NCBI GenBank assembly: GCA_016840515.1
Contig: JAEOSF010000012.1
Coordinates: 1 to 64,000 of the forward strand
Direction of reading: 5' to 3'
Source: Candidatus Borrarchaeum yapensis
GTDB lineage: Archaea > Asgardarchaeota > Sifarchaeia > Borrarchaeales > Borrarchaeaceae
Length of the DNA stretch: 64,000 bases
The position numbers and the translations under genes were made by a program. Below the pieces are notes generated by a model. It had not been told where the DNA came from. It was given only the letters and a program-made list of their open reading frames with translations, and did no database searches. Shown here in pieces: positions 942-30,904 of the stretch (the first letter of the stretch is position 1; each line of letters begins with the position of its first letter).

Positions 942-1952
942 ATGAGCAAAAATAGCGACAGATATCATAGGCAAACTATAATGCCGAACTGGGATCAAAG
1001 AAAGATTTCTAATGCTACAATTTTTCTAGCTGGAATTGGGGCACTTGGGTGTGTTGTGGCAGAAATATTAACGATGATGGGTATTGGTAAATTAGTGATT
1101 GTGGATTTCGATACTGTTGAACTTTCAAATTTGAACCGTCAATGGCTATTCCGTGACGAGGATATTGGAAAATCAAAAGCTTTAGTTGCAAAAGAACATC
1201 TTAAAGTGCTAAATCCTTCTGTCGATGTTATTGCTTTTAATCAAAAGATAGAAGACATTCCAGAAAGCATTTATGCAACGTGCGATCTAATTGTTTCCTC
1301 TTTAGATACCTTTGAGGCACGCCGCTGGCTAAATTCAATGTGTGTTTCTGTAGGAAAACCACTGATTGATGCAGGTCTTTACGAATTCTTTGGTCATGTT
1401 CAGGTAATTATCCCTGGGTCAGATTCCGCCTGTCTTGAATGTCAACCCCTAATCCCCGAAACTCGATTACAGCAAGTATGCACACTCCCAGGTGAACCGA
1501 GGAAGAAGGAAAGAGATGAACCGAAGGAGGTATTTCCATCGGTTGGAACGATTTCTGCCGTAATTGGAGGAATTATGAGCCAAGAAGTTGTGAAACTGCT
1601 ATTAGGGCTTGGGAGTCCTATTGGATATCTCTTTTACGATGGTTTTTCTGAAGAATTCACAAAAATTGATCTTACTAGAAGATTAGATTGTTTTGTATGT
1701 GGTGAAAAATGGAAACTTGATGAATTAAGATATTTCGCAGAAGGAGATGAAAAAATAGGCGAATTACGGAAGAGAATAGCATTGATCTACGGTCTTGCTG
1801 ATCCTACGATGATCGTGGGAACAAAAATAGTTGACGACGAAATGAGCATTACTGAAGCAGAAATATCTGAGTTTGCACCGATCTTCGTTATCGATTCGAC
1901 TGTGGCTAAACCGATACGAATAAGAGTTGTCTTAACTCATAATTCTGTTTGA
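942..1952 (+). CDS. E1-like ubiquitin/UBL-activating enzyme (ThiF/UBA family)
   Basis: Adenylation-domain motifs 'GIGALG', 'VDFDTVELSNLNRQWLF', 'DIGKSKA'; CxxC pairs (CLEC...CFVC); catalytic-Cys-like 'QVCTLPGEPR' resembling eukaryotic UBA3/UBA2. ATG at 942 has 'ggtgatc' upstream; the ORF track starts at 918. Confidence 0.92.
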   Translation: MSKNSDRYHRQTIMPNWDQRKISNATIFLAGIGALGCVVAEILTMMGIGKLVIVDFDTVELSNLNRQWLFRDEDIGKSKALVAKEHLKVLNPSVDVIAFNQKIEDIPESIYATCDLIVSSLDTFEARRWLNSMCVSVGKPLIDAGLYEFFGHVQVIIPGSDSACLECQPLIPETRLQQVCTLPGEPRKKERDEPKEVFPSVGTISAVIGGIMSQEVVKLLLGLGSPIGYLFYDGFSEEFTKIDLTRRLDCFVCGEKWKLDELRYFAEGDEKIGELRKRIALIYGLADPTMIVGTKIVDDEMSITEAEISEFAPIFVIDSTVAKPIRIRVVLTHNSV

Positions 1953-1998
1953 TAATATAACCTTATGCAAGAATCAAGATTAATCGGAAGGAAATCTT

Positions 1999-2790
1999 AT
2001 GTCTTTCAAACTAGCTATTGTTGGTAAAGGGGGTGTAGGAAAGACCTTTTTAGCGGGAACTTTGGCAAGATTATTTGCGCAAGATGGTAAAAATGTTCTT
2101 GCTGTTGATGCAGACCCAAATATGAATTTACATGCAACAATGGGGATTTCTACAACTGAACTTCCTACTCCCATTGGTGAAATGAAAGAACTTGTTGAAG
2201 AAAGGACAGGAGTCCCTGCAGGAGCATCAGGAATGTTTGTTTTGAATCCGAGGGTTGATGATATACCTGATAAGTATCATGTTAGACAAGATGGGGCAAA
2301 ACTTATTGTACTTGGAACAATAGAGACTGCTGGAGGTGGCTGTATTTGTCCAGAAAGCACTCTTTTGCGCGCATTGCTAAGCCACATAATTCTAAAACGT
2401 GATGATATTGTCATAATAGACTTTTATGCAGGTCTTGAGCATTTAGGAAGAGGTACAAGCAAGGGTGTAGATGCAATGATAACCGTTGTTGAACCAGGAA
2501 CTAGATCATTAGATCTGGCAAAAAGAATTAATTCTCTTGGGGCAAGCCTTGGAGTTCCTCGCCGTTATATTGTGGGGAATAGGATTTCTAACGAGCAGGA
2601 AGAGAACTTCATAAAAAATGCAGCAATAGGATCTGATTTAGAATTACTTGGTCTCATTCCCAGAGATCCTGCCATTATCCAATCTGATATCATGGGTATT
2701 GCACCTATTGACTTTGCACCAGAATGTCCAGCGCTCGTTGCGATTCAAAATATCAAAGAAATACTAGAAAAGAAACTCGCTCCTCAGTGA
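1999..2790 (+). CDS. CooC-like P-loop ATPase (CO dehydrogenase nickel-insertion/maturation family, MinD-type)
   Basis: Deviant Walker A 'GKGGVGKT', 'VDADPNMNLHATMG', CxC in 'GGGCICPE', 'DFYAGLEHLGRGT'. Confidence 0.85.
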   Translation: MSFKLAIVGKGGVGKTFLAGTLARLFAQDGKNVLAVDADPNMNLHATMGISTTELPTPIGEMKELVEERTGVPAGASGMFVLNPRVDDIPDKYHVRQDGAKLIVLGTIETAGGGCICPESTLLRALLSHIILKRDDIVIIDFYAGLEHLGRGTSKGVDAMITVVEPGTRSLDLAKRINSLGASLGVPRRYIVGNRISNEQEENFIKNAAIGSDLELLGLIPRDPAIIQSDIMGIAPIDFAPECPALVAIQNIKEILEKKLAPQ

Positions 2791-2949
2791 AATAAGAGTT
2801 ATCGAGCAGAATTGATGCATTAAACATCTAGATTTTTGCAAGGATTAATTCATGTCAGGTATATCTAACGTATTGCTAGAGATAATACGAATATTAAATA
2901 CTTCAATTTCAGTTTGTAAATGTATAATCATTTTTTGGCGGCGACAAAA

Positions 2950-3633
2950 ATGACACAATCTGAAATTGAAGTTGATGGAAACATCATTATCAATGGAAAG
3001 GCGTATCCTGCTATTGAACTTCTAAAAGCAATTAACAGGTCAGGTGCACTTTCTTTCGATGATGAAACTGCACAATTGATACTTAATGATATGCCTATTC
3101 AGCCAATTTATGGATCCACAAGAAAAAACGTATTTTCTCTATTATGTTATCATAGCTTGGCGTATTGTTGCCCTAGAACTCATAAATGTGATAAACGTGA
3201 CGCTACATTGAAAATGCTTAACATCTCATTGGATGAGTATTCTCGTATTAAAGATGAGCATCATTCACTTTTTCTAGAGTTTGAACACACACATTCACAT
3301 ACCACTTACAGTGAGAATTCACCGTCTCGTGTAAATGATAATCTAGATCTTTCATCCTTTTTCGGTAATCCAAATGTAGATTCAAAGACAGAAAAAGAGA
3401 ATACAGAGGATTTCCTTAAGGAATTTCTCTCAGGGGATGATTTTGACAGCAATAGTATGTGGGATAGTTCTTTAAACCAAAAAGAAGTCCGTTATGGTAG
3501 AAAAAATGTTCCTCCATCAACAGAAACAGGTTCACGTCACTTGAGTTATTCTGGCAAATGCCCGCGCTGTAGAAAGCGAAACTCTCCTGATGATAAATTC
3601 TGTTCTCGTTGTGGAGCTGAACTTAGAGATTGA
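2950..3633 (+). CDS. Uncharacterised protein with Cys-rich N-terminal segment and C-terminal zinc ribbon
   Basis: C-terminal 'CPRCRKRNSPDDKFCSRCGAEL' is a double-zinc-ribbon-type motif; 'CYHSLAYCCPRTHKCDKRD' is a second Cys cluster. ORF track starts at 2920; ATG at 2950 is an alternative start. Confidence 0.65.
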   Translation: MTQSEIEVDGNIIINGKAYPAIELLKAINRSGALSFDDETAQLILNDMPIQPIYGSTRKNVFSLLCYHSLAYCCPRTHKCDKRDATLKMLNISLDEYSRIKDEHHSLFLEFEHTHSHTTYSENSPSRVNDNLDLSSFFGNPNVDSKTEKENTEDFLKEFLSGDDFDSNSMWDSSLNQKEVRYGRKNVPPSTETGSRHLSYSGKCPRCRKRNSPDDKFCSRCGAELRD

Positions 3634-3775
3634 TACGTTCTTAAATATTCTAAATTCTCCCTAATCAGCCATTTTTCATTTTTCAAGGATCACCCTATTG
3701 GCGAGACTCTATCCATGTCCGGTAGTATAAATCAACGATGTGAGGGCTTATTTAATTAGTATGCATTGAATCTTG

Positions 3776-4786
3776 TTATGTTAATCCAAGATGGATTTCT
3801 CGTCTCTCCTTATAAGTCTGAGGGTAGCCCTCTAAAAGGAACAGATATGTAGCCTTAATGTCTGCTTTCATTTTTTCTAAAGTCTCAATTTCTGGGTCCG
3901 TAACCCCCCAATTGAAAATACTATACCGTCTTCCAATTCGATTTAAATCGCGTGTGAAAGCTAATTCTGAAAGGACTCTTTCATAATCTGGGGTTTCAGG
4001 TTGTGGGAGTGTTGGTGTAAGTGGTAAAACATTGAATAATAATTGGTCTGCAACATCAGATAATTTCATCACGTCTTGTCCAAAATGTTTTTTAGCTCCT
4101 TCAATATAATCGGTTTCTGGATCTATATCGACGGTTAGTAGGACTTCAATATCTGGATTTAATTCCTTGATTGAACTTGTAGTTTTAGAAAGGAATGTAG
4201 TTATTTTATTGGCTCGCCATTCATACCATTGAGAAAGGATGTCCGGATCATTGAGCAATGTATCAAACACGAATTCTCTCTCTAAGTTCATTAATTCTGA
4301 AAACTCTTTTCTACATGTTTCACAAAAACAAAACTCCTGTCTAGCAAACTGATTATCCATCAGTATTATACCATTTATTTGAAATGTGAGGATTTCCTTA
4401 ATCACAGCCATAAGATATTTCCAGTACGACTCTTGGACGGGGCATACAAAAGTGCCTACGGGAGCCCTGGTAATACCAGATCTATATGCACCATATTTTG
4501 GATCCTGAGCAAAATAATCATCTACAAAGGTTGAAACTATAGCATAAACATCGACGGCGATGTCAGAAGCAATCTGGGAGAAACTTGAGAAAAATTCAGA
4601 ATACTTCTGATCACTCGGTGCGCTCATGCTTCTATAAAGTGTGTATCCAGTATCTCTCTTCGCCATTAACGCAATTCGCTCTAAAAAACTCCCATAACTC
4701 GCGAAAAACTCATCGGAAGTCTCGTTAAGCATATAAGGGTCAAGTACGGGGATATGTCCTCTTGTTAATATTTCACGGAGTTCCAT
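3776..4786 (-). CDS. Uncharacterised protein, possible glycoside-hydrolase-like TIM barrel
   Basis: 'INGIILMDNQFARQEFCFCETCRKEF' and 'SSIKELNPDIEVLLTVDIDP' resemble GH-like hypothetical barrels with a C.C..C insert. Confidence 0.45.
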   Translation of the reverse strand: MELREILTRGHIPVLDPYMLNETSDEFFASYGSFLERIALMAKRDTGYTLYRSMSAPSDQKYSEFFSSFSQIASDIAVDVYAIVSTFVDDYFAQDPKYGAYRSGITRAPVGTFVCPVQESYWKYLMAVIKEILTFQINGIILMDNQFARQEFCFCETCRKEFSELMNLEREFVFDTLLNDPDILSQWYEWRANKITTFLSKTTSSIKELNPDIEVLLTVDIDPETDYIEGAKKHFGQDVMKLSDVADQLLFNVLPLTPTLPQPETPDYERVLSELAFTRDLNRIGRRYSIFNWGVTDPEIETLEKMKADIKATYLFLLEGYPQTYKERREIHLGLT

Positions 4787-4858
4787 ATGATCACCATTAA
4801 TTAGAAATAAACCATAAGAGAACTATGCAATTCTTAGATTTAACATTTTCCGTCTCTA

Positions 4859-7462
4859 TTACATGAAAAGGTCAAGTCTTCTTATACCGATAATAGATCC
4901 AAAATCCACGTTTAATGCGTCAAGAACCTGAGTGAAGATACTTTCAACATGTTTTTTGTATTTTTCTGTGTCTATTTCATCAATCGAAGCTATTTCAACA
5001 GGTTTTACACCAGGCTCACCCCTCACCTTCACAAATGAAATAATGCTACCTGGCTCGATGTCTCTGTTCAATAATCTTGCTGCCTTTACATGTTGAGGTG
5101 TCGTCTTTTGATAACTTTTCAAGTTTCTAGTCATTTGAACACGAAATGCGAGTTCCTCTAAAGAATATTCGAGATTTTTCAATTTATCTAGACATGTCTT
5201 TACTATCGTACGTATTTTATTCCTAGCTATTTCGAAGTCATTTTGAACTTTAACTTCCGAAAGTACATTCATCATTTCGAAAAATGCGTCTTGAAGGAAT
5301 AAAGGCGTATGACGTTTTTTGCCTGTTAGTCCCTTGATATCAACAGATCCGCTTCTGTATACGCCTACGTAATTCTTTTTCCTCTCTGAAAGAGCTACAT
5401 ATCTGTAAATCTTGTCAATATCTAACTCAATATCAAGCGTTTGTTTACACCATTGCGTAAGTTTTTCGATTTGTGACTCCGAGGGATTTTCTAAGAAAAC
5501 ACTGTCAGTATCTCCATAGATAACAGAAATATCCATCTTTTGAGCCTTTTCAATTGTTTGTGTAATGATAAATCTCCCAAGAGCTGTTGTGCTTTCAGCC
5601 ACAGGCAGACAATACAAGGGAAAATGTTCTGCGCCAAAGACGCCATAAAACGCATTAATAATTAGTTTTAACGCTTGTTGAATGACATAGTAGAGTTCTT
5701 GTGTTTCCTTGCCCAACATTTTGTTTTTTGACTGTGGCTTAAACCATTTCAGTCTAATGTCTCTTAGAAATCCAATAATAAGACCTGCAAGGCCTCGTTG
5801 TTTTTTACAAACCCAATGGTCTGTACCTGGTATAAGGTTTTGTTTGCATTCTGGATGTGTACACCTTACAGTCTCATAACTAAGGTTATGGACCTTTATG
5901 ATGGAAGGATACAAACTTGCGAAATCAAGCACTACAACGTCAAAATGGACGCCTGGCAAAGGGTCAATAACAATGGCACCTTTGTATTTCTTTCCTTTTA
6001 TTATTGCCTGCGTTGAAGCCTCTTCCCCTTTTGCCTCCTTAATTTCGTTTGGTAACGGGATCAGATAATCATTCTTTCTATGTTCATAATAAAACAAATT
6101 TTGAATCCAAGAAGATACACTTTGACGTGTAACATCTTCAAGTGATAAATGGGAAATTCTCATCAATAATATTATCAATTTCCAGACGAGGTTTTCACTA
6201 TAGCGAGTAAGATTTAAGGTAATTTTTCCATCCCTATAGCAATAACTAGCTAAATCTAATAGAGGTAACTTCAAAAGGGGTTGCTCTACTTTTATTTTTT
6301 CCATACCCAATAATGCGTTGGCTACGGTATTGAGGTCAGTAGTTTTATATTTTGCAGAGAACGCATATATTTGAACAGCTCGGTTATTGAAGAATCTGTA
6401 GAGATCTACATGGATATTTTTCGACAATGCAACAAAATCTTTTCTGATGATCATTGGAATTTCGTCTCTTCGAAATCCAAGATGATTGAGAGCTCGATAA
6501 TACAAATAAGGCATATCGAATTTGTCACCGTTATATGTCAAAATAACTGGATATTCGTTGAAGACTTGAAATAGTTCTTGAAAAAGTTCTTTTTCCTTTG
6601 TAAAATATTCTATACTTACATCTTCAAGGTTATCTTTGGCGTCTCCAATTTCCACATCTTTTCTTTCAAGTAGTAGTATTCGCTTTTGCCCATCCGACGC
6701 AACAACAGAGACACATCCAACAGGATAATTTGCTTGTTCGGGTCTTGGAATTGCGTCTGCAAAAGGTGAGATAACTTCAATATCAATAGCTACACGTTTT
6801 ATATCAGGTATTGGTGACAAAAAGAGAGGCATATTCTTTTCCAGAAGTTCCTTCACTTCTTTTGGTTCATCTTCAAATAGTTGATTAATTTCTTCTTTAA
6901 TCTCTACTGGTACGATTGCAGCACTATTAAGCTGCTCATCAAAGACTTCATAAGGTAAACCGGGTGTTAACGCTAAATCCGCTATGTAACATTTGTGATA
7001 TGGAATATTTGCTTCCCATGCCGTTGGTAATAACTCTCGAATAGCCCCCGTTTTCCCGCCGATTGCAAGCGGATCTTTAGCAATTATTTTTGTCATTTTT
7101 ACAGACTTATCTAGTAAAAGATCCTTTTTTTCAACCGTTTCCATATCCAAAAATCCTGTATGGTTCGTTATTTTAGAGTTATTTTTCAGATCTTCAATGG
7201 AAATATTTGAAAAGCAATAAGGATGATGATCTGAGCAATCATGCCAGAAATAAATTGAGTGATTTCTTGGATCATAAAATCGTGCCGCAGCACAACTATT
7301 CTTTCCATCATATTCTACAGAGAGTAAAAAATCTGTCTTTTTGGTTGTAAGTTCTTTAATCTCTAATTCAGTTATTTTCTCTTCCTTTGAGGATTTTTCT
7401 TTCTTTTTTCGTGGTTTATAGGATTCAAAAAACTGATCAAGTATCGTTTCTGATAAATCCAT
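4859..7462 (-). CDS. Family B DNA polymerase (PolB1-like) with exonuclease domain
   Basis: Exo motifs DIE, 'YNGDKFD', 'YRDGKIT'; Pol motifs 'DFASLYPSII', 'KLIINAFYGVFG', 'YGDTDSVF'; Zn segment 'CTHPECKQNLIPGTDHWVCKKQRG'. Start at 7462 (MDLSETILDQ) has a GAGGAGAAA SD; the ORF track extends to 7507. Confidence 0.95.
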   Translation of the reverse strand: MDLSETILDQFFESYKPRKKKEKSSKEEKITELEIKELTTKKTDFLLSVEYDGKNSCAAARFYDPRNHSIYFWHDCSDHHPYCFSNISIEDLKNNSKITNHTGFLDMETVEKKDLLLDKSVKMTKIIAKDPLAIGGKTGAIRELLPTAWEANIPYHKCYIADLALTPGLPYEVFDEQLNSAAIVPVEIKEEINQLFEDEPKEVKELLEKNMPLFLSPIPDIKRVAIDIEVISPFADAIPRPEQANYPVGCVSVVASDGQKRILLLERKDVEIGDAKDNLEDVSIEYFTKEKELFQELFQVFNEYPVILTYNGDKFDMPYLYYRALNHLGFRRDEIPMIIRKDFVALSKNIHVDLYRFFNNRAVQIYAFSAKYKTTDLNTVANALLGMEKIKVEQPLLKLPLLDLASYCYRDGKITLNLTRYSENLVWKLIILLMRISHLSLEDVTRQSVSSWIQNLFYYEHRKNDYLIPLPNEIKEAKGEEASTQAIIKGKKYKGAIVIDPLPGVHFDVVVLDFASLYPSIIKVHNLSYETVRCTHPECKQNLIPGTDHWVCKKQRGLAGLIIGFLRDIRLKWFKPQSKNKMLGKETQELYYVIQQALKLIINAFYGVFGAEHFPLYCLPVAESTTALGRFIITQTIEKAQKMDISVIYGDTDSVFLENPSESQIEKLTQWCKQTLDIELDIDKIYRYVALSERKKNYVGVYRSGSVDIKGLTGKKRHTPLFLQDAFFEMMNVLSEVKVQNDFEIARNKIRTIVKTCLDKLKNLEYSLEELAFRVQMTRNLKSYQKTTPQHVKAARLLNRDIEPGSIISFVKVRGEPGVKPVEIASIDEIDTEKYKKHVESIFTQVLDALNVDFGSIIGIRRLDLFM

Positions 7463-11988: not shown

Positions 11989-14358
11989 TTGAAAAAAAGT
12001 AAGATTGGAGTTCAGCAATTTATGCGTGGTGCCCTTTTCGGATTAGGTATTCTTAGTTTCTCACAAATTTTATTAATCCTTTGGCGATATGAACTTTTCT
12101 CCATTCCTTTTGTTTACCCTATCATTTTGATCTGTTCAGCTGTTATTATACTGGTGGTTTCTGAATTATTATGGCACGATGTAACAGCCTTCTTTGAATT
12201 AGTAACCACTTCTCACAGATATGCACTGGGTTTCATCATTCTTATTGCCATGTTAGCGAATCTTACTTTTATAGGTCCAGGCTATATCCATGCAGACGGT
12301 ATTACTCATGCGTTTAAGGTATGGTATCTCAGGAAGGCATGGCTAAATGGCAGTTTTTATCCACTTTGGTGTCCATATTGGTATTCAGGATATCCATTCC
12401 TGGAATTTTATGGTCCTTTATTTTATGTCTTCGCAGCTTTACTTTCCTTAGGTTCAGATTGGATGTTTGGCTCTAAACTGGCTCTGTATCTGGCATGTAT
12501 AATGTCTCCCCTCGCCATGTACGGGCTTATATATGTCATTACTCAAGATAGACTTGGAGGAATAGTGGGAGGGGTAGCCTATACCCTTACCTACTATAAA
12601 TTTCCTCTATTAACGAAGTATGGACATCTTGCCAGCAGTTTGGTGTTGATTTTTCTTCCTTTATTATTCTTATCTTTTGAATTAGCCATTAGAAAAGAAA
12701 AACAAGTGTATGCGATATTAGCAGGTTTTTGTTGGGCTGGGGTATTCCTTTCTCATCAAGGAGCTGGATATATGGTCTCTCTTTTGGTATTTTTTTATTT
12801 TCTATTTTCCTGTGCTATTAAGTTCAAATTTGAAAATATCTACTTAATCGGTCGCATTTGCTTAATTTCAACAGTCGTAGCATTAGGCTTGTCTTCCTTC
12901 TTCATTATACCTTACTTTGTAGATGGTATTGGAGCAAATACAAGAATCTTTGATTCACATTGGCTAGGATATCCTATATCTCTACCCTTAATTCTGACAA
13001 GAGATTTTGTAAACGTTTATCAACCGTTTCCTGTATATATTGGGGATTCTATATTGGGAATAGCTTTTGCAGCGATATTTCTGCGTAGAACTCGGTCAAC
13101 CATCGTATATACTGCATTGTTGCTTTTTTCGTTCTTTCTTGTAATCGGATCAGAACTTCCATTCTATACGGCAATTCCTTTTATTGTCAGTCTTGAATAT
13201 CCGTATCGATTCCTCATACTAGTTAGTTTTGTGGCATCAGTATTGTCTGGCATTGCAATTTCATCAATAAAGAATATACAAAAACCATTTTCAGGGTATC
13301 TTATGAAACTTAAGTCGAATCCAAGAATTCAAAAAAGGATAATCGTAATATTGATGGTCATCATAATCATTGATCTATGGCCAGGAACCTTAGTTTCCAA
13401 AAACAGACCTTTGGATTGGTTAGTTGATGATGAATGGTTAGGTGCCTATAATTGGCTTGATACACAGACTGGTTACCATAAAATCATGAGATTTGGGGAT
13501 TCTGGACCCAGTTATGTAGTTTCTTCTTCTATTATTGGAAATACATTCGACACCGCAGGCTACTTTAGACAATCTACGAATAAAGACTATGGTGAGTTTA
13601 CCTCCATGTTTAAGGGAGAAATAAGATCATTGAATAATGCCCCTAAAAAAGGGCTTCTAACTCCTCTTCAACTTTTAGGAGTTAAATATGTGCTTTTAGA
13701 TACCTCCAAAAATTATGCTACGCACTTAACCAAATCATCTGAATTAGAAGTAGTGCATACTTCCGGCAAGGTAACTATTTTGGAATATAGTGGATACACT
13801 TCCCCGATCATAATTTCTCAGTCTGCAGCGCTTGTTGGAGGCGAAAACGAAATCGATACTTTCTATGATTATGTAACAAATCCAGATTATGATCCTTCAA
13901 AAATGATTTTTCTCAAAGAAGATCAGTATTATAACGACATTGAGACCCCTCTCCAATCTTTTGAGGACTCAATAGAGTATGACGACAGTTTTATGTCACA
14001 AATTATTGATTTAGAGGTGAGAGAAGACACTATCTTGACAAATATATTTGTTTCTGCATCTTCTTTTGTATTTTTCAGTTTTAATTTCTTCCCTGGCTGG
14101 CATGCTTTAGTTGATGGAAAAGAAAGTAAAATCCTAATTGCGGAACCCTTTTTTATGTGTATATATCTTAACGAAGGCGGAACGCATAATATCTCGCTTA
14201 AGTACCAGCTTAATACACCTAAAACAGTAGGATTACTAATTACACTGAGTACATTATTTGTAGCACTCTTTGTTACGTTTTGGTCATATAAACAGAAAAT
14301 CAAAGAGATAATAGAACAGAGTTTATTGAGCAAATACAGAGGATGGAGAACTAAATGA
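11989..14358 (+). CDS. Large polytopic membrane protein, GT-C/YfhO-like, with extracytoplasmic C-terminal region
   Basis: 789 aa; 'HADGITHAFKVWYLRKAWLNGSFYPLWCPYWYSGYPFLEFYGPLFY' typical of 6-pyruvoyl-tetrahydropterin-synthase-related/YfhO-type membrane proteins; 'FFPGWHALVDGKE' C-terminal segment. Confidence 0.75.
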   Translation: MKKSKIGVQQFMRGALFGLGILSFSQILLILWRYELFSIPFVYPIILICSAVIILVVSELLWHDVTAFFELVTTSHRYALGFIILIAMLANLTFIGPGYIHADGITHAFKVWYLRKAWLNGSFYPLWCPYWYSGYPFLEFYGPLFYVFAALLSLGSDWMFGSKLALYLACIMSPLAMYGLIYVITQDRLGGIVGGVAYTLTYYKFPLLTKYGHLASSLVLIFLPLLFLSFELAIRKEKQVYAILAGFCWAGVFLSHQGAGYMVSLLVFFYFLFSCAIKFKFENIYLIGRICLISTVVALGLSSFFIIPYFVDGIGANTRIFDSHWLGYPISLPLILTRDFVNVYQPFPVYIGDSILGIAFAAIFLRRTRSTIVYTALLLFSFFLVIGSELPFYTAIPFIVSLEYPYRFLILVSFVASVLSGIAISSIKNIQKPFSGYLMKLKSNPRIQKRIIVILMVIIIIDLWPGTLVSKNRPLDWLVDDEWLGAYNWLDTQTGYHKIMRFGDSGPSYVVSSSIIGNTFDTAGYFRQSTNKDYGEFTSMFKGEIRSLNNAPKKGLLTPLQLLGVKYVLLDTSKNYATHLTKSSELEVVHTSGKVTILEYSGYTSPIIISQSAALVGGENEIDTFYDYVTNPDYDPSKMIFLKEDQYYNDIETPLQSFEDSIEYDDSFMSQIIDLEVREDTILTNIFVSASSFVFFSFNFFPGWHALVDGKESKILIAEPFFMCIYLNEGGTHNISLKYQLNTPKTVGLLITLSTLFVALFVTFWSYKQKIKEIIEQSLLSKYRGWRTK

Positions 14359-15434
14359 CCAAAGCACAAAAAAAAGTGTTAAAACTCCTTACGCCAGGTT
14401 TTATTACACCTCATAAGGGGGTTCATTTAGTCTTTGACGCTATTGATGGGCTCAATGACGTGGAATATATTGTTGCAGGTTCAATTAGAACTGATTCACG
14501 TGTTCATAAGGCATACTTGACAAAAATAAAAGAAAACGCTCCTTGTAATGTGAAAATAATTGAAAAATTCTTTTCGAAAGATGAGTTTCTTGAAATAATT
14601 GCAGATAGCGATATAGTTATTTTACCTTATTTAGATGTATCTCAAAGTGGCTCTGGAATTCTCCATTTATCATTAGGTCTTGGAAAGCCGATTATTGCCT
14701 CAAAAATTGGCGAATTCGTAGAATTATTAAGAGGAAACGCGTTATTGGTCGATCCTTACGATAAAATTGCATTAAGAAACGCTATTCTTAAAATGAAGAA
14801 TAGCAAATTGAAGAAGTTTTATGAATCTCGTACAAAAGAATTAGCCTCTAAAACATCATGGGGCAACATTGCTAATGAACATCTCAAAATATATCGCAAT
14901 CTGCTAAAAACATATCATCCTTCACACATAGCGATAGTTAGTACTTTTGGGGAACGTTGTGGCATAGGCGAATATGCATCATTCTTGGCAAACTCGTTAG
15001 AAAATCAACAACTGAAAGTTCTGCGGATTAAGCTTAAGAAGAACTGGAGTTTTGGCATCGCTTTAGTGAAAATTGTTGACCGGTACCATCCCCAACTTGT
15101 GCACATACAGTTTGAATATGGTTTATTCAAATGTTTCCCATTTCTCCAGATAGGCTCTTCTATCTTACTCTTCTATTTCCTCTCAAAATTATTTAACGTT
15201 AAAACAATAACAACAATGCACACTGTTTATAACCCTCATTATCTCTGGAAAAAAAAGTGGAAGAATATATTCTCAAGAGTTGCAGGAACGTTCTTGCGAG
15301 TATTTCTTGTGAAATTAATAACAGTAATGTCAAATCGAATTATAGTACATACAAATGAATCTAAAAAGGCGCTTTCAAACGACGAGAAAACGTTTGTAGT
15401 GCGTCATGGCACATTGATTAAAAGGCACAAATAA
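14355..15434 (+). CDS. GT-B (GT4-like) glycosyltransferase with apparently permuted lobe order (C-lobe then N-lobe)
   Basis: Residues ~1-185 match a GT4 C-lobe (KKVLKLLTPGFITPHKGVHLVFDAI; SQSGSGILHLSLGLGKPIIAS). Residues ~190-359 match a GT4 N-lobe (HIAIVSTFGERCGIGEYASFLANSLE; IIVHTNESKKALS..KTFVVRHGT). ATGA overlap with the upstream gene supports the start. Confidence 0.8.
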   Translation: MTKAQKKVLKLLTPGFITPHKGVHLVFDAIDGLNDVEYIVAGSIRTDSRVHKAYLTKIKENAPCNVKIIEKFFSKDEFLEIIADSDIVILPYLDVSQSGSGILHLSLGLGKPIIASKIGEFVELLRGNALLVDPYDKIALRNAILKMKNSKLKKFYESRTKELASKTSWGNIANEHLKIYRNLLKTYHPSHIAIVSTFGERCGIGEYASFLANSLENQQLKVLRIKLKKNWSFGIALVKIVDRYHPQLVHIQFEYGLFKCFPFLQIGSSILLFYFLSKLFNVKTITTMHTVYNPHYLWKKKWKNIFSRVAGTFLRVFLVKLITVMSNRIIVHTNESKKALSNDEKTFVVRHGTLIKRHK

Positions 15435-15447
15435 GGTAGAGCGAGAA

Positions 15448-16323
15448 ATGGATGCTTCTATAGTTATTTCAACTTATGGGAGGGAAATAGACGTAGTAGA
15501 TTGTATTAACAGCCTTCTTAATCTCAACAAGCATAATTTTGAGATTATTGTTATTGAGTCATCCCCCAACGTGTTAACAGCGCTTGATTTAAAAAAAAGA
15601 TATAAGGATAATTCATTAGTAAGAATAATTCATTCTAAAATTCCCATAGGTCTGTCCAGAGCCAGAAATATCGGTATTCTCCTTGCTAAGAATGATATTG
15701 TGGTTTTTATTGATGACGATTGTGTTGCCTGTCCTAATTGGCTTCAAAGTCTTTTAAATGGATTTAGTACTAAAAAAACAGGCATTGTTGGGGGTCGATC
15801 AATCCCGCTTTTCTTAACTGAACGCGTTCCTCGATGGTTAGATGATCGATTGACTCCAGCAATAGGAATTTCACATTTTTCAAATAAAAGGCAAAAAGTT
15901 GAATATGTACTTGGCTGCAATTTTGCAGTCCGAAAGGAATTATTCAATGAAATGAATTTGTTTAGAGAAGATTTAGGTCGTAGAGGAAAACTTCTTCTAT
16001 CAAACGAAGAGGTCGAGTTTTGTAAGAGGGTTAAGGAAACAGGTTATCTCGTTATTTACACGCCCAAAGCTGTGGTGAGACATAAGGTATACCCTACAAG
16101 GTTGAACAGAAGTTACTTTTTCAAACGATTTTTCTATGGAGGTTTGAGTGAGGGCATAATGCATACTTTTGGCATTAGAAAACTGTTTTTTGTAGCGAAA
16201 GAATTGCTGAAAAATATAATATATTTCTTTAGAAATGCCAATATGTTTTCCTTGTGTTCAATTTTTGAAAAGTTAGGTCTATTTGTAAGTATTCTCTATA
16301 TACCCAAAAGTGGTACATCTTAA
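15448..16323 (+). CDS. GT2-family glycosyltransferase
   Basis: 'DASIVISTYGREIDVVDCINSLL', 'SRARNIGILLAKNDIVVFIDDDCVACPNWLQSL'. Confidence 0.93.
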   Translation: MDASIVISTYGREIDVVDCINSLLNLNKHNFEIIVIESSPNVLTALDLKKRYKDNSLVRIIHSKIPIGLSRARNIGILLAKNDIVVFIDDDCVACPNWLQSLLNGFSTKKTGIVGGRSIPLFLTERVPRWLDDRLTPAIGISHFSNKRQKVEYVLGCNFAVRKELFNEMNLFREDLGRRGKLLLSNEEVEFCKRVKETGYLVIYTPKAVVRHKVYPTRLNRSYFFKRFFYGGLSEGIMHTFGIRKLFFVAKELLKNIIYFFRNANMFSLCSIFEKLGLFVSILYIPKSGTS

Positions 16324-16381
16324 ACAGGTCTGATCTCATAAAGGACTATAAAAGAAAGAGTTGTTGGAGTTCTACAGCGCA

Positions 16382-17575
16382 ATGTCAATAAAAATAGACA
16401 CCCACAGAGAAATTGACGCTATTCGTCTTACTCTGACTCAAATGCTCGAAGAACGGGATAGATTATTCCCAAAACGTGATCCTCAAAATACAAAAAATAC
16501 GCGCGAGACTCTCACTGCATATATAAATGCTCTTAAGAGTATCAAAAAACCAAATTGGAAGCCTGATGATAAACTTATTGAATCAGCAAAAAAAATCTCT
16601 GAGAACTGTGTGTTCATTTGTGGATATATGAAAAGCGGAACAACGCTACTTTTGGAACTCTTAGACGGTCACCAAGAACTCATTGTTATGCCAGGCGATT
16701 CACGCATGATAGCTTGGATCGATAAGCACAGCAATATGTCTTGGATAGAATGTTTAAAAGGATGGGATACACATTGGGTCTCTCGCCTCATCAATCCAAC
16801 TGGTCAAAAACCATTCTGGATTATGGGCGAAAATGAAACTCCTTACTTGGATTTTCTTAATTATTTAACCTATTGGCTTGATAATTTACCTCAATCCGCC
16901 CGTGGTCTTTTCCTTGCTGCTGTTTTGGCTTTTTACTGTGCAAATAGTCGACGTGCAACGACTCCTAAGTTATGGATTGAAAAAACACCTGGGAATGAAT
17001 TGAATGTTAAACAAATCTTGAATTTATTTCCTTCTGCACGTTTTATTCATATAATACGCGATCCACGTTCTAATATTGCTTCCTTGAAGCGACTTTTTAA
17101 AGTGCGTAATTGGAGTTGGGATACAGAAGCTTACGCATATTCAATTCGAAATTCTATAGAAATTGGCGTTCTGAACCAAGAACGTCTTGGAGAAGATAAA
17201 TATCATATACTACGCTATGAGGATTTAGTGACAAATCCTGAGGCTAAAATCAAGAATGTCGCTCGTTTTCTAGGGGTCAAAATGAACAAAGTTCTATTAA
17301 GTCCCTCTGTTAATGGCTTGCCTGCAAAATCAAATACAATGTTCGAAGATAGGCAGATTCAAGGGAAGATTTTTACTACTCTTACTGATAAATGGAAGAC
17401 TGAATTGGATTCCCAAGAACAAAAAATGATATGGGCTATTTTATATTCTGTTGTAAATCGTTTAGGCTATAAATGGGATGTAGGATTTACTAAATGGGTT
17501 TATTATTTGTATTATTATCAAATTCGTGTGCGTCATTTTTTATTTCGAATATTGTCTCGGACAAAGAAAAATTAA
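16382..17575 (+). CDS. Sulfotransferase (PAPS-dependent type)
   Basis: 5'-PSB-like 'VFICGYMKSGTTLLLELLDGHQELIVMPGDSRM' and 3'-PB-like 'ARFIHIIRDPRSNIASLKRLF'. ATG at 16382; ORF track starts at TTG 16361. Confidence 0.88.
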   Translation: MSIKIDTHREIDAIRLTLTQMLEERDRLFPKRDPQNTKNTRETLTAYINALKSIKKPNWKPDDKLIESAKKISENCVFICGYMKSGTTLLLELLDGHQELIVMPGDSRMIAWIDKHSNMSWIECLKGWDTHWVSRLINPTGQKPFWIMGENETPYLDFLNYLTYWLDNLPQSARGLFLAAVLAFYCANSRRATTPKLWIEKTPGNELNVKQILNLFPSARFIHIIRDPRSNIASLKRLFKVRNWSWDTEAYAYSIRNSIEIGVLNQERLGEDKYHILRYEDLVTNPEAKIKNVARFLGVKMNKVLLSPSVNGLPAKSNTMFEDRQIQGKIFTTLTDKWKTELDSQEQKMIWAILYSVVNRLGYKWDVGFTKWVYYLYYYQIRVRHFLFRILSRTKKN

Positions 17576-17758: not shown

Positions 17759-18607
17759 ATGAGAGAAAAAAAAATTGCGATATATGAACCGGATCGATCA
17801 ATAAAACAGGGTTATTTTACGCTTTGGAAAGAGAATTTCCAAGATTTAAAAGAAAATTTATGGCTAATACGTCAACTTTTTTTAAGAGATTTTAAAGGAC
17901 AGTATAGCCAATCTCTGTTGGGTGTTATATGGGCCTTTATATTACCTCTTGTAACACTTGCAATCTTTATTTTACTAAGAAGTTCTGGTCTATTTAACGT
18001 TGGTGCTATAGAGGTGCCCTATGCGATCTATGCGCTTCTAGGATTATCTTTCTGGCAACTTTTTGTCACAGGAATTGTTCAGAGTACAAATTCTTTGGTT
18101 AATGCGGGATCTATGATTAAAAAGGTCAATTTCCCTAGAGAGACCTTAATATTTGCATCATTGGGCAATTCACTTTTCTCATTCACTCTTCAGATGATTA
18201 TTGTTTTTATCTTGTTTGGTGTTTATGGATTCATGCCACACTGGCAATTCGTGCTATTTCCATTAATGCTAGTTCCGATAGTATTACTAACCTGTGGATT
18301 AGGCTTCATCTTTTCAATAATAAATGGCATAATAAGAGATTTGGGAAGAATTATAGGTCTCGGATTAACGTTTTTGCTATTTATTACACCTATCGCGTAT
18401 GAACTCCCTGAAATTGGATTTGTGGCAACATTGGCTCGTATCAATCCCTTATATTATCTGTCTATAGCCCCAAGGGATATCGCCTTAACAGGAACATTAA
18501 ATCACCCGCTTGGTTACTTTATTTCTTGTGGTCTATCAATTGTCATATTTTTCTTTTCATGGATGACATTTCATTTGACAGAAACCAGAATTCCAGAGAG
18601 GCTCTAG
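17759..18607 (+). CDS. wzm: ABC-2 type polysaccharide export permease (Wzm/TagG-like)
   Basis: 'LIRQLFLRDFKGQYSQSLLGVIWAFILPLVTLAIF', 'GLSFWQLFVTGI'; paired with the ATPase downstream. Confidence 0.9.
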   Translation: MREKKIAIYEPDRSIKQGYFTLWKENFQDLKENLWLIRQLFLRDFKGQYSQSLLGVIWAFILPLVTLAIFILLRSSGLFNVGAIEVPYAIYALLGLSFWQLFVTGIVQSTNSLVNAGSMIKKVNFPRETLIFASLGNSLFSFTLQMIIVFILFGVYGFMPHWQFVLFPLMLVPIVLLTCGLGFIFSIINGIIRDLGRIIGLGLTFLLFITPIAYELPEIGFVATLARINPLYYLSIAPRDIALTGTLNHPLGYFISCGLSIVIFFFSWMTFHLTETRIPERL

Positions 18608-18611
18608 TAAT

Positions 18612-19910
18612 ATGTCTTTAAGAAATGAGGAGAATCACCTTTTAAAACATAATGAAGTTGTTATCAACGTTAAAAACGTATCAAAGAAATTTTCCAAGTC
18701 TCTTAAACGATCTATGATATATGGCATGAAAGATATTTTTCGAAATACTTTTATGATGTCGTCAAAATCTGAGAGACTCAGAAACAGTGAATTTTGGGCA
18801 GTAAAGGATGTATCATTCCAAGTAAAAGAAAGTGAATGCCTAGGTATAATTGGTCCTAACGGTTCTGGAAAAACGACCCTCTTATCTATGTTGAATGGCA
18901 TTTACATGCCAGATAAAGGTAAGATCATGACAAAAGGAAAGGTAGGCGCACTAATAGCGGTTGGAGCTGGTTTCCACCCTATGTTATCAGGACGGGAGAA
19001 CATTTACATAAACGGTGCAGTATTGGGAATGAACAAAGAAGAAATTAACGAGAAATTTGATTCTATAGTTGAATTTGCCGATATTGGAGATTTTCTCGAT
19101 ATGCCTGTGAAACACTATAGTTCTGGAATGTATGTAAGACTTGGATTTGCGGTGGCTATTCACTGTGAACCAGATATACTCTTAGTCGATGAGATCTTGT
19201 CTGTAGGAGATATCAGATTTCGGGATAAATCACAAAGGAAATTTATGGAATTACTAGAAGAAGGTACTTCAGTTGTTTTCGTTTCTCATAATCTTAACAC
19301 TGTAAGACGTGTATGCGATAAAGCACTTATGTTAAACAAAGGAGAAGTTGTTGACTATGGAGCGGTTGAAGATGTCGTTAATAATTATAGTCAGTTAATG
19401 AACAGAGAGGAGCTAAAATCTCTCAAAGAAAAAAGTGAACTGGCTACCTTGACGAGGAAAGGAGAAACCGGAAGGATAGAACTTTTTAACTGCAAGGTTT
19501 TTGAGGAAAGAGGAAATCCTGAATCTAATGAGATCGAATTTGGTCAAAATATTGTAATTGAATTTGAGTATCAATGTTATGAGAAGTTAAAAAACCCTGA
19601 ATTTCGCATAACTATCTCTTCAGCTTTTAATAGAAAACCAATTGCAAAGTTAAGTTCTTACTCTATACCCAACTTACCTGAAACATACGAAGGAACTGGG
19701 AAAATTAGATTTACGATTACAAACAATAATCTACATCATGGTGTTTTCCTCATCGGTCTTTCAGTTGTAAAAGAAACTTTTGGCCATCTATTTACTATTA
19801 ACAATTGTCAACAATTTATTATCAAAAGCCAAGATCCTAAAGCTCATCTTGTAGAATATTCGAATTTGCTATCAGTTTTTGATTTTGAAGTGGAACATTT
19901 TAGTGAATGA
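18612..19910 (+). CDS. wzt: Polysaccharide ABC exporter ATPase (Wzt-like) with C-terminal extension
   Basis: 'GIIGPNGSGKTTLLSMLNGIYMPDKG', 'VGAGFHPMLSGRENIYING', 'HYSSGMYVRLGFAVAIH'; about 150-aa C-terminal beta-rich region resembling Wzt_C. Confidence 0.92.
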   Translation: MSLRNEENHLLKHNEVVINVKNVSKKFSKSLKRSMIYGMKDIFRNTFMMSSKSERLRNSEFWAVKDVSFQVKESECLGIIGPNGSGKTTLLSMLNGIYMPDKGKIMTKGKVGALIAVGAGFHPMLSGRENIYINGAVLGMNKEEINEKFDSIVEFADIGDFLDMPVKHYSSGMYVRLGFAVAIHCEPDILLVDEILSVGDIRFRDKSQRKFMELLEEGTSVVFVSHNLNTVRRVCDKALMLNKGEVVDYGAVEDVVNNYSQLMNREELKSLKEKSELATLTRKGETGRIELFNCKVFEERGNPESNEIEFGQNIVIEFEYQCYEKLKNPEFRITISSAFNRKPIAKLSSYSIPNLPETYEGTGKIRFTITNNNLHHGVFLIGLSVVKETFGHLFTINNCQQFIIKSQDPKAHLVEYSNLLSVFDFEVEHFSE

Positions 19911-20947
19911 GGAATCAAGTTGTTAAATATTCAGTGGAGGTAAATTCGATTTCAAATGTAAAGAATTTTTTGCCTAATGTTGTTGTACTTGGTGCTCAAA
20001 AATGTGGGACAACTTGGTTGTTTAAAAATTTACAAACGCATCCAGATATTCTAATTCCAAGAAAGGAGATCCATTACTTCACTAGACATCATTCAAAAGG
20101 GATTGAGTGGTATTCGAATTATTACAAAGACGCCTATAATGGGCAGAAAATTCTAATGGATATAGCTACTAACTATCTTTATGATCATGATTATTTTAGA
20201 AGATATATGCTTACTTATCATAGAAATATTGCAGAAGAGATTTACAATACACTAAATGAAGCAAAATTAATATTAATGGTCAGAGATCCAATAGATCGAG
20301 CGTTTTCGCAATATATCAACTTATTACAAGAAACAATTACTTATGGTGCGATTTATAGCGGTAAAATTAAACCAATTGATTCTCTAAAAGCCAGAAAAAT
20401 GGGGTTTAAATACCCTAAACACTGGCCGTTAGGTTTTAAATTACAAGACCGTGACGCTTTCTTTTATGTGCCAGATACGTTTGAGAAAGCAATAATTACT
20501 CATCCTTATCTACTTATGCGTGGTTTTTTTGCTACATATTTAAAAAAATATTTAGAGTATTTCAAGAAAGATCAATTTTTATTTTTAGAATTTAATATGC
20601 TAAAAAAGAATCCAAAAGGGCTTCTAAATTCTGTCTACGATTTTTTGGGAATAGAAAGGTATTATGATGAGGAATTTTTGTACAAGAGAATCAATCCAGC
20701 TAGCAAAAGAAAAATTGTTAGAAATTGGAGTTTAGAATCATATATAATACGGATTTTAAGAGAAGAAACTATTCCACACAAATTCAAAATCCCTTTAAAA
20801 ATTCTATCGAAATTGAATTTAGCTTTAGGTAAGAAAGCACAACCTAAACCAAAAAAAGAAACGATAAAAATACTGTCTAGATGGTATAAGCCACACAATC
20901 TAGAATTGGAAAAAATTACTGGCTTAAATTTAAGCCATTGGAAATGA
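19907..20947 (+). CDS. Sulfotransferase
   Basis: 'NVVVLGAQKCGTTWLFKNLQTHPDILIPRKEIHYF', 'AKLILMVRDPIDRAFSQYINLLQ'; ATGA overlap with wzt. Confidence 0.92.
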   Translation: MRNQVVKYSVEVNSISNVKNFLPNVVVLGAQKCGTTWLFKNLQTHPDILIPRKEIHYFTRHHSKGIEWYSNYYKDAYNGQKILMDIATNYLYDHDYFRRYMLTYHRNIAEEIYNTLNEAKLILMVRDPIDRAFSQYINLLQETITYGAIYSGKIKPIDSLKARKMGFKYPKHWPLGFKLQDRDAFFYVPDTFEKAIITHPYLLMRGFFATYLKKYLEYFKKDQFLFLEFNMLKKNPKGLLNSVYDFLGIERYYDEEFLYKRINPASKRKIVRNWSLESYIIRILREETIPHKFKIPLKILSKLNLALGKKAQPKPKKETIKILSRWYKPHNLELEKITGLNLSHWK

Positions 20948-21065: not shown

Positions 21066-21965
21066 ATGTTGCCAAATTTCTTAATTATAGGTGCACAGAG
21101 ATCTGCTACTACTTTCGTCCATAAATGTTTAGAAGATCATCCCAATATTTTTATGCCTCCAAAAGAAAAAGCCTTTTTTGAGAATCCATATTACTTTCAA
21201 AAAGATTTCAATGAATTTGAAAAACTATTTGAAAATTTATCTCAAAAAGCTATTGGAATCAAACGCCCTAATTATTTAGGTAAAATAGAATGCCCAGAAA
21301 GAATCTATCAGTATATTCCAAATGCTAAACTTATAGTGATACTTCGAAATCCAGTGGAGAGAGCGATATCTGCCTATTTTCATCAGATGAAATCAGGTTT
21401 TATCCCAATAAAACCTGTTGAAAAAGGATTACTAGATGTGATCAACCGAAAATACGACAAATTGTATCCTAGATCCAAGGAAATAATTGAGTTCGGCTTT
21501 TATCATAAGCATTTGATGCGTTACTTACATTATTTTAAAAAAGATCAATTATTAGCAATCCTCTATAGTGATCTTAGAGCGGATCCACTTAAATCAATTC
21601 AGTATATTTACAGGTTTCTTAAAGTTGATGATAATTATATTCCAAAAACATTGAAAAGCAAACAAAATCCAGGTGTGTACTCGTTAACAAGGCTCAGACT
21701 ACTCAATATCCGTCATCGATTTATTTCAATTTATAATGAAGATAAAACTGCAAGATATGGTAAGAAACAAAAGACAATACTAGATAGACTAATTGATAGA
21801 ATCATTCTTACAATTGATAGAAAATTACTCTCTCGAATTTGTAAAAACTCGAGGTCAAAGCTAAGTGCTAAACTTGCTAGAAGTCTATTCGAAATATATG
21901 AAGAAGACATCACTGGGCTGGAAAGTTTCTTAGGCAGAAAATTAACACATTGGATGAAGTACTAG
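21066..21965 (+). CDS. Sulfotransferase
   Basis: 'LPNFLIIGAQRSATTFVHKCLEDHPNIFMPPKEKAFFE', 'AKLIVILRNPVERAISAYFHQM'. Confidence 0.92.
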   Translation: MLPNFLIIGAQRSATTFVHKCLEDHPNIFMPPKEKAFFENPYYFQKDFNEFEKLFENLSQKAIGIKRPNYLGKIECPERIYQYIPNAKLIVILRNPVERAISAYFHQMKSGFIPIKPVEKGLLDVINRKYDKLYPRSKEIIEFGFYHKHLMRYLHYFKKDQLLAILYSDLRADPLKSIQYIYRFLKVDDNYIPKTLKSKQNPGVYSLTRLRLLNIRHRFISIYNEDKTARYGKKQKTILDRLIDRIILTIDRKLLSRICKNSRSKLSAKLARSLFEIYEEDITGLESFLGRKLTHWMKY

Positions 21966-29995: not shown

Positions 29996-30904
29996 TCAAG
30001 ACTTCTTTATATAAAAATTACTAGTTTTGAGATTTTTAATTTTCTGCTCTTGAGGTATTGAATAACCATGTTTCTTCAAATGCTCAATAAATTCTTCACT
30101 CATTTTCCATTTTCTTATTTTAGGATTATCGGATATAGAATATCTACCAATATTAATCGGTCTTATATGATCATATGAGTGAGGATAATCACTTAAGCCA
30201 CATAATTTGAATATCATGGGGGCATAAAGCGAAGGAGATTGGCTAAAATCTTCATATCTAAATAAAGGAATAGTTTCATATCTTTGCTCTAGTTCCTCAA
30301 GATGCCCATATTTTTCCAACCATCTTGCTTCTCTCTTTTTTGGAGAGTCCTTCCCAAATAAAATATATTGACTCGTTATCGCATCTCTTGGATCTCTGAT
30401 AAATGCAAAAATTCTAACATCGTTTCCTAATTCTTTGTATTTGTAAATTAGTTCAAGAGCAGTTCTGTTTCCTAAATATTGTGGGGATTTATCGAAAACA
30501 ATCGGTCCTAAGCGTTCTAAGATTGAATCCCATAATTGGAAAACCTCAGTCTCAGAGAAAGTTGCTGGAATCTTCAAATAGGGATGCGATTTTTTAAGAC
30601 GCGAGATAAATGGCGTTTTGTCACCTTTAAGTGCTCTTCCAGCAAGATCCCAAAATCTGGGCTCCCAATTCTCAATCAGTTGATCAATATGACAAACGCC
30701 AACATCTGAATGTTTTTGAAACATTCTAAATACTGCTGTTGAGCCACATCGTTTTGCACTTAGCATTATAATTGTTCGTTTTTTTTCTTTTGACGATAGT
30801 TTTTTTGTAGCATTCACATTTATTTCTCCCATCATTTTCAAGAGTTTTCTTAATTCATAAAGGGAAATAGTTGCAGTTAGATGCCTATTGCTTATTTTTA
30901 GCAA
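29996..30904 (-). CDS. Sulfotransferase
   Basis: 'RTIIMLSAKRCGSTAVFRMFQKHSDVGVCHIDQL', 'VRIFAFIRDPRDAITSQYILF'. Internal Met near 30832 is an alternative start. Confidence 0.85.
   Translation of the reverse strand: MLKISNRHLTATISLYELRKLLKMMGEINVNATKKLSSKEKKRTIIMLSAKRCGSTAVFRMFQKHSDVGVCHIDQLIENWEPRFWDLAGRALKGDKTPFISRLKKSHPYLKIPATFSETEVFQLWDSILERLGPIVFDKSPQYLGNRTALELIYKYKELGNDVRIFAFIRDPRDAITSQYILFGKDSPKKREARWLEKYGHLEELEQRYETIPLFRYEDFSQSPSLYAPMIFKLCGLSDYPHSYDHIRPINIGRYSISDNPKIRKWKMSEEFIEHLKKHGYSIPQEQKIKNLKTSNFYIKKS

Follow-up and report, generated by a model that had tools for sequence, protein, structure and literature searches.

Results

The permuted gene and its boundaries

The window analysed here is a 64,000-nucleotide stretch of the genome of Candidatus Borrarchaeum yapensis (contig JAEOSF010000012.1, positions 1 to 64,000). 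On its forward strand, an ORF at 14355-15434 encodes a candidate GT4 glycosyltransferase of 359 amino acids. It overlaps an upstream gene for a PTPS_related membrane protein (11989..14358, +; PF10131, 9.5e-13) and is followed by a conserved neighbour, a GT2 glycosyltransferase gene (15448..16323, +; PF00535, 2.6e-23). Further downstream lies a Wzm/Wzt-type ABC exporter pair that places the region in a polysaccharide-export context (17759..19910, +; Pfam PF01061 9.6e-14, PF00005 1.8e-22, PF14524 8.1e-11) and comprises a permease (17759-18607, +) and an ATPase with a Wzt_C domain (18612-19910, +). The start of the GT4 gene is sharply defined. Its ATG shares the sequence ATGA with the stop codon of the upstream gene, and an in-frame TAA at 14352-14354 directly abuts the ATG (together 14352..14358, +). 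The gene is therefore unable to extend upstream, which rules out an N-lobe hidden 5′ of the ORF.

The sugar-nucleotide lobe (C-lobe) comes first, at residues 1-187 (14355..14915, +; PF00534, PF13692 and the canonical profile described below), and ends with the crossing-helix motif SWGNIANEHLKIY. The acceptor lobe (N-lobe), of the same GT4 subfamily, is placed second at residues 188-359 (14916..15431, +; PF13439 and the canonical profile), and its first strand begins at residue 191 (nt 14925). The chain terminates shortly after the residues VVRHGT, which align to the canonical hinge motif VIPHGV. The break point lies after the VIPHG hinge motif and ahead of the first C-lobe strand, in the stretch by which the two lobes are connected in normal GT-B enzymes. 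These boundaries agree with a first-pass annotation of the same DNA, in which the start had been described as coupled by ATGA to the upstream gene, the acceptor lobe as beginning at about nt 14916, close to the strand found here, and the chain as stopping after a hinge-like motif.

When the two halves were submitted separately to Pfam, residues 1-187 matched Glycos_transf_1 (PF00534; 2.1e-9, 37.6 bits, cut-off 26.4) and Glyco_trans_1_4 (PF13692; 2.5e-9, 37.9 bits, cut-off 27). Residues 188-359 matched Glyco_transf_4 (PF13439; 2.6e-5) with 24.7 bits, slightly under the curated cut-off of 28.5 bits. Only GT4-type domains were returned by the Pfam scan, and no lobes of the MurG/Alg13-14 (GT28) type. 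The identity of the N half is settled by a 406-column profile (alignment A7) in which ten canonical relatives were combined, since this profile matches the two lobes in reversed order: residues 5-186 fall on columns 214-405 (141 bits) and residues 191-353 on columns 6-195 (55 bits; N-lobe scores against this subfamily profile are 55-62 bits), the opposite of the N-lobe and C-lobe succession usual in GT4, a family of retaining GT-B enzymes. Re-joining the halves N then C in silico produced a single continuous match to the parent family spanning columns 6-404 of 406 (202 bits), as defines a circular permutation. The product of 14355-15434 is thus confirmed to be a GT4-type GT-B protein with the C-lobe preceding the N-lobe, the order originally proposed. 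Profile and Pfam matches also support the view that the halves are complementary lobes from one GT4 subfamily with their order swapped. The suggested alignment of each half to GT4 HMMs gave GT4-type matches for both, that of the N half under its Pfam cut-off, and the alternative of two unrelated domains gave way to complementary blocks of one profile.

Distribution and origin of the swapped order

A search for the same order in other genomes, also suggested at the outset, found it in all four genomes of the genus Borrarchaeum that we examined. Profile A1 was run against a set of 228 genomes from the phylum, an overlapping set of 393 relatives, and three further archaeal groups (23, 156 and 345 genomes). 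Outside the four genus members, no full-length C-N match was present among these archaeal genomes, with the proviso that this profile might not pick up a permuted GT4 if it belonged to a different subfamily. The remaining matches correspond to the C-lobe, a few of them extending beyond it, and the other genomes searched contained canonical relatives only, or none at the thresholds used. Where a match did run past the C-lobe, it dissolved on inspection: in genomes G654 and G644 a TAG divides the match into two distinct genes, in G674 the ORF encodes a single canonical GT4, and in G611 a canonical GT4 is followed by a further domain. The plasmids searched yielded C-lobe matches only, and the phages and viral contigs gave no match to the permuted GT4. 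The head-to-tail pairs of canonical GT4 genes, in the same frame with a lone TAG between them, lie at loci L098 (865-3108) and L099 (1237-3459), in two genomes of another archaeal group.

It is plausible that the order arose by tandem duplication of a GT4 followed by loss of the outer lobes, as the first-pass annotation had suggested. By analogy with Alg13-Alg14, a split followed by reversed re-fusion would be an equal rival to the tandem route. In trees built separately for each lobe, the four permuted proteins form one clade, whose placement is weakly supported; by tree path, the N-lobe is nearest to G032 and G025 and the C-lobe nearest to G144 and G036. This difference could indicate a chimera, in which the lobes stem not from one permuted gene but from two different head-to-tail GT4 genes that became fused, an origin that would still give a GT-B enzyme and is compatible with the mode of action proposed below. 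In G654 and G644 only a TAG interrupts the shared frame of the two consecutive GT4 genes, so that such junctions can arise easily; losing the TAG, and then the outer lobes, would yield the observed C-N order. However, the diverging placements are weak in both lobe trees, and both lobes are of the same subfamily and fit one profile. On balance, a chimeric origin seems possible, though less likely than not.

Predicted structure

An AlphaFold2 model of the permuted GT4 computed with 14 sequences has a mean pLDDT of 78 and a pTM of 0.73, and strands and helices alternate in both lobes. The C-lobe is confident and the N-lobe weaker (block pLDDT about 40-84); the underlying alignment is deep in the C-lobe only, because MAFFT misplaced N-lobe fragments of canonical proteins beside the C-lobe. 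A canonical relative used as a control reached a pLDDT of 92.5 and a pTM of 0.89, and in a Foldseek comparison its full chain aligned with GT4 structures, among them MshA, BshA and PimB′. The permuted model gave low-rmsd matches (2.6-3.2 A) to ~165-195 columns of GT4-like proteins, the partial length expected when a sequential method meets a permuted fold. The prediction, which had been suggested as a means of telling a single cleft from a domain-swapped dimer, supports two Rossmann-like lobes.

In the model, a long helix (residues 169-187) runs directly into the first strand of the N-lobe at residue 191. The short linker between the crossing helix and the N-lobe, at about residues 187-190, might be taken to mean that the permuted chain functions only as a domain-swapped homodimer, whose two GT-B clefts would each be built from the C-lobe of one subunit and the N-lobe of its partner. 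Yet the C-terminal helix of GT-B enzymes already crosses back onto the N-lobe and packs there, and a short linker is thus in keeping with closure within one chain. The monomer prediction itself reached a pTM of 0.73, although two loosely tied lobes in one chain would also yield such a middling value. An obligatory domain swap therefore appears unlikely.

Conserved residues

All 16 columns that are invariant in the ten canonical relatives are retained in the window protein, across both lobes, and include the glycine loop, the TxH histidine and the KG lysine; by these residues the permuted GT4 belongs to the same subfamily. Among the permuted orthologs, two keep 16/16 and the other two 15/16, and identity to the consensus in the other aligned columns is 30%. 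Many GT4 enzymes typically carry an E-x7-E motif, whose acidic residues are replaced in the C-lobe of the permuted proteins. Their absence, together with the tight coupling to a membrane gene, could suggest a catalytically dead GT-like scaffold or regulator of the PTPS_related protein. However, canonical relatives of this subfamily lack the two acids as well, which makes this a subfamily trait and not an effect of the permutation, and a dead scaffold is hard to reconcile with 16/16 invariant residues. We consider such a role very unlikely. Since nearly all residues that define the normal enzyme remain, the permuted GT4 is probably a working enzyme, re-wired by evolution.

Orthologs and selection

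The order of the lobes, the ends of the protein and its neighbours are the same in 4/4 Borrarchaeum genomes. The copy in Candidatus Borrarchaeum weybense is 97% identical to the window protein, and two further genus genomes carry full-length orthologs with 72-74% identity in which order and ends are unchanged. At all orthologous loci the PTPS_related gene lies upstream and the GT2 gene downstream, the latter with a 69% identical counterpart in both distant loci. For the C-lobe, dN/dS (NG86) was estimated at 0.13-0.16, and the N-lobe gave 0.11-0.24, values which indicate purifying selection on both lobes. The permuted GT4 is thus genuine and selectively maintained. An assembly artefact or pseudogene remnant, for which the fragmented assembly and its estimated contamination of 10% might speak, can practically be dismissed given intact frames, purifying selection and an order and neighbours conserved in four genomes. 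In particular misassembly, which the first-pass annotation had named as what might overturn its reading, is ruled out by orthologs at 97% and 72-74% identity with the same neighbours, the order being kept in three genomes besides the window.

Discussion

We consider it likely that the protein encoded at 14355-15434 is a genuine GT-B glycosyltransferase of GT4 type that is circularly permuted and kept by selection, a reading in which catalysis, an intramolecular cleft, substrate and partnership are what we infer. Counting against it are the weaker model of the N-lobe, the PF13439 score which taken alone stays under its cut-off, and the absence of the E-x7-E acids, which the canonical relatives share. 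The chain runs from the sugar-nucleotide lobe through the crossing helix to the acceptor lobe. Its new termini lie where a hinge peptide usually connects the two lobes, and the original C-terminal helix leads through a short linker into the initial strand of the N-lobe. Both lobes would most likely close within one chain into an ordinary GT-B cleft. There, a nucleotide sugar may serve as donor for sugar transfer while a glycan of the cell surface is assembled, possibly in partnership with the membrane protein encoded by the coupled PTPS_related gene and with the adjacent GT2.

On the usual view, GT-B enzymes function through opening and closing movements about the hinge between their two lobes. 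More tentatively, and with somewhat less than an even chance of being right, we suggest that the permuted GT4 is an active monomer in which the hinge break alters the opening and closing of the cleft and leaves the ends of the hinge available for contact with the PTPS_related protein. A natural enzyme whose hinge peptide is cut, and whose lobes are tied via the crossing helix only, would offer a direct test of the requirement for the hinge and an example from nature of how GT4 enzymes can be re-wired. A domain scan misses such permuted proteins if it counts lobes and ignores their order.

The permuted GT4 shares both lobes, the invariant residues and the crossing helix with canonical Asgard GT4s of the same subfamily (e.g. 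the fusions at loci L065 and L066, and L070 and L071), but these have the N then C order. Reversed lobe order is already known in one GT-B chain: reversed Alg13-Alg14 fusions occur in two amoebae, Entamoeba histolytica and Dictyostelium discoideum, and their origin in Amoebozoa has been inferred to be a split and then a re-fusion in the opposite order (PMC8993221). As in the permuted GT4, the sugar-nucleotide lobe of these fusions precedes the acceptor lobe within a single GT-B chain, but they are eukaryotic, belong to the MurG/Alg13-14 family and consist of two subunits that were split and then re-fused. GH70 glucansucrases, the circularly permuted relatives of GH13 (PMC11046441), are likewise carbohydrate-active enzymes with a natural permutation and preserved catalytic motifs; unlike the permuted GT4, they are TIM-barrel proteins permuted inside one domain and not between two lobes. 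The GT4 case was not found described: no report of a circularly permuted GT4 was found in the open-access papers searched, subscription papers being outside the scope.

The product of the PTPS_related gene has homologs in the membrane halves of GT4-PTPS_related fusions (blastp, 2e-19 to L066 and 3e-15 to L065), which occur as single chains of about 1058 residues in two other Asgard genomes (G025 and G032). Such fusions elsewhere support a functional link between the permuted GT4 and the upstream gene. The PTPS_related linkage is common to both arrangements, but in the fusions the membrane protein is attached behind the C-lobe of a canonical GT4 (L065 1013-4177; L066 1014-4190), while next to the permuted GT4 it is a separate upstream gene. 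Because the cluster around the permuted GT4 also contains further GT2 and GT4 genes, the Wzm/Wzt-type exporter and sulfotransferase genes, a role as a glycosyltransferase in surface-glycan assembly appears likely from gene context. The presence of sulfotransferases alongside the exporter in an archaeal glycan cluster suggests a sulfated surface glycan. Sulfotransferase genes of the window are found at 16361-17575 and 19907-20947 (by Pfam), and at 21066-21965 and 29996-30904 (by sequence resemblance only). At the Candidatus Borrarchaeum weybense locus (L021), two large adjacent genes (1174-3534 and 3635-6004) lie upstream of the permuted glycosyltransferase; by their N-termini they resemble PTPS_related paralogs, the second being the counterpart of the single gene in the window.
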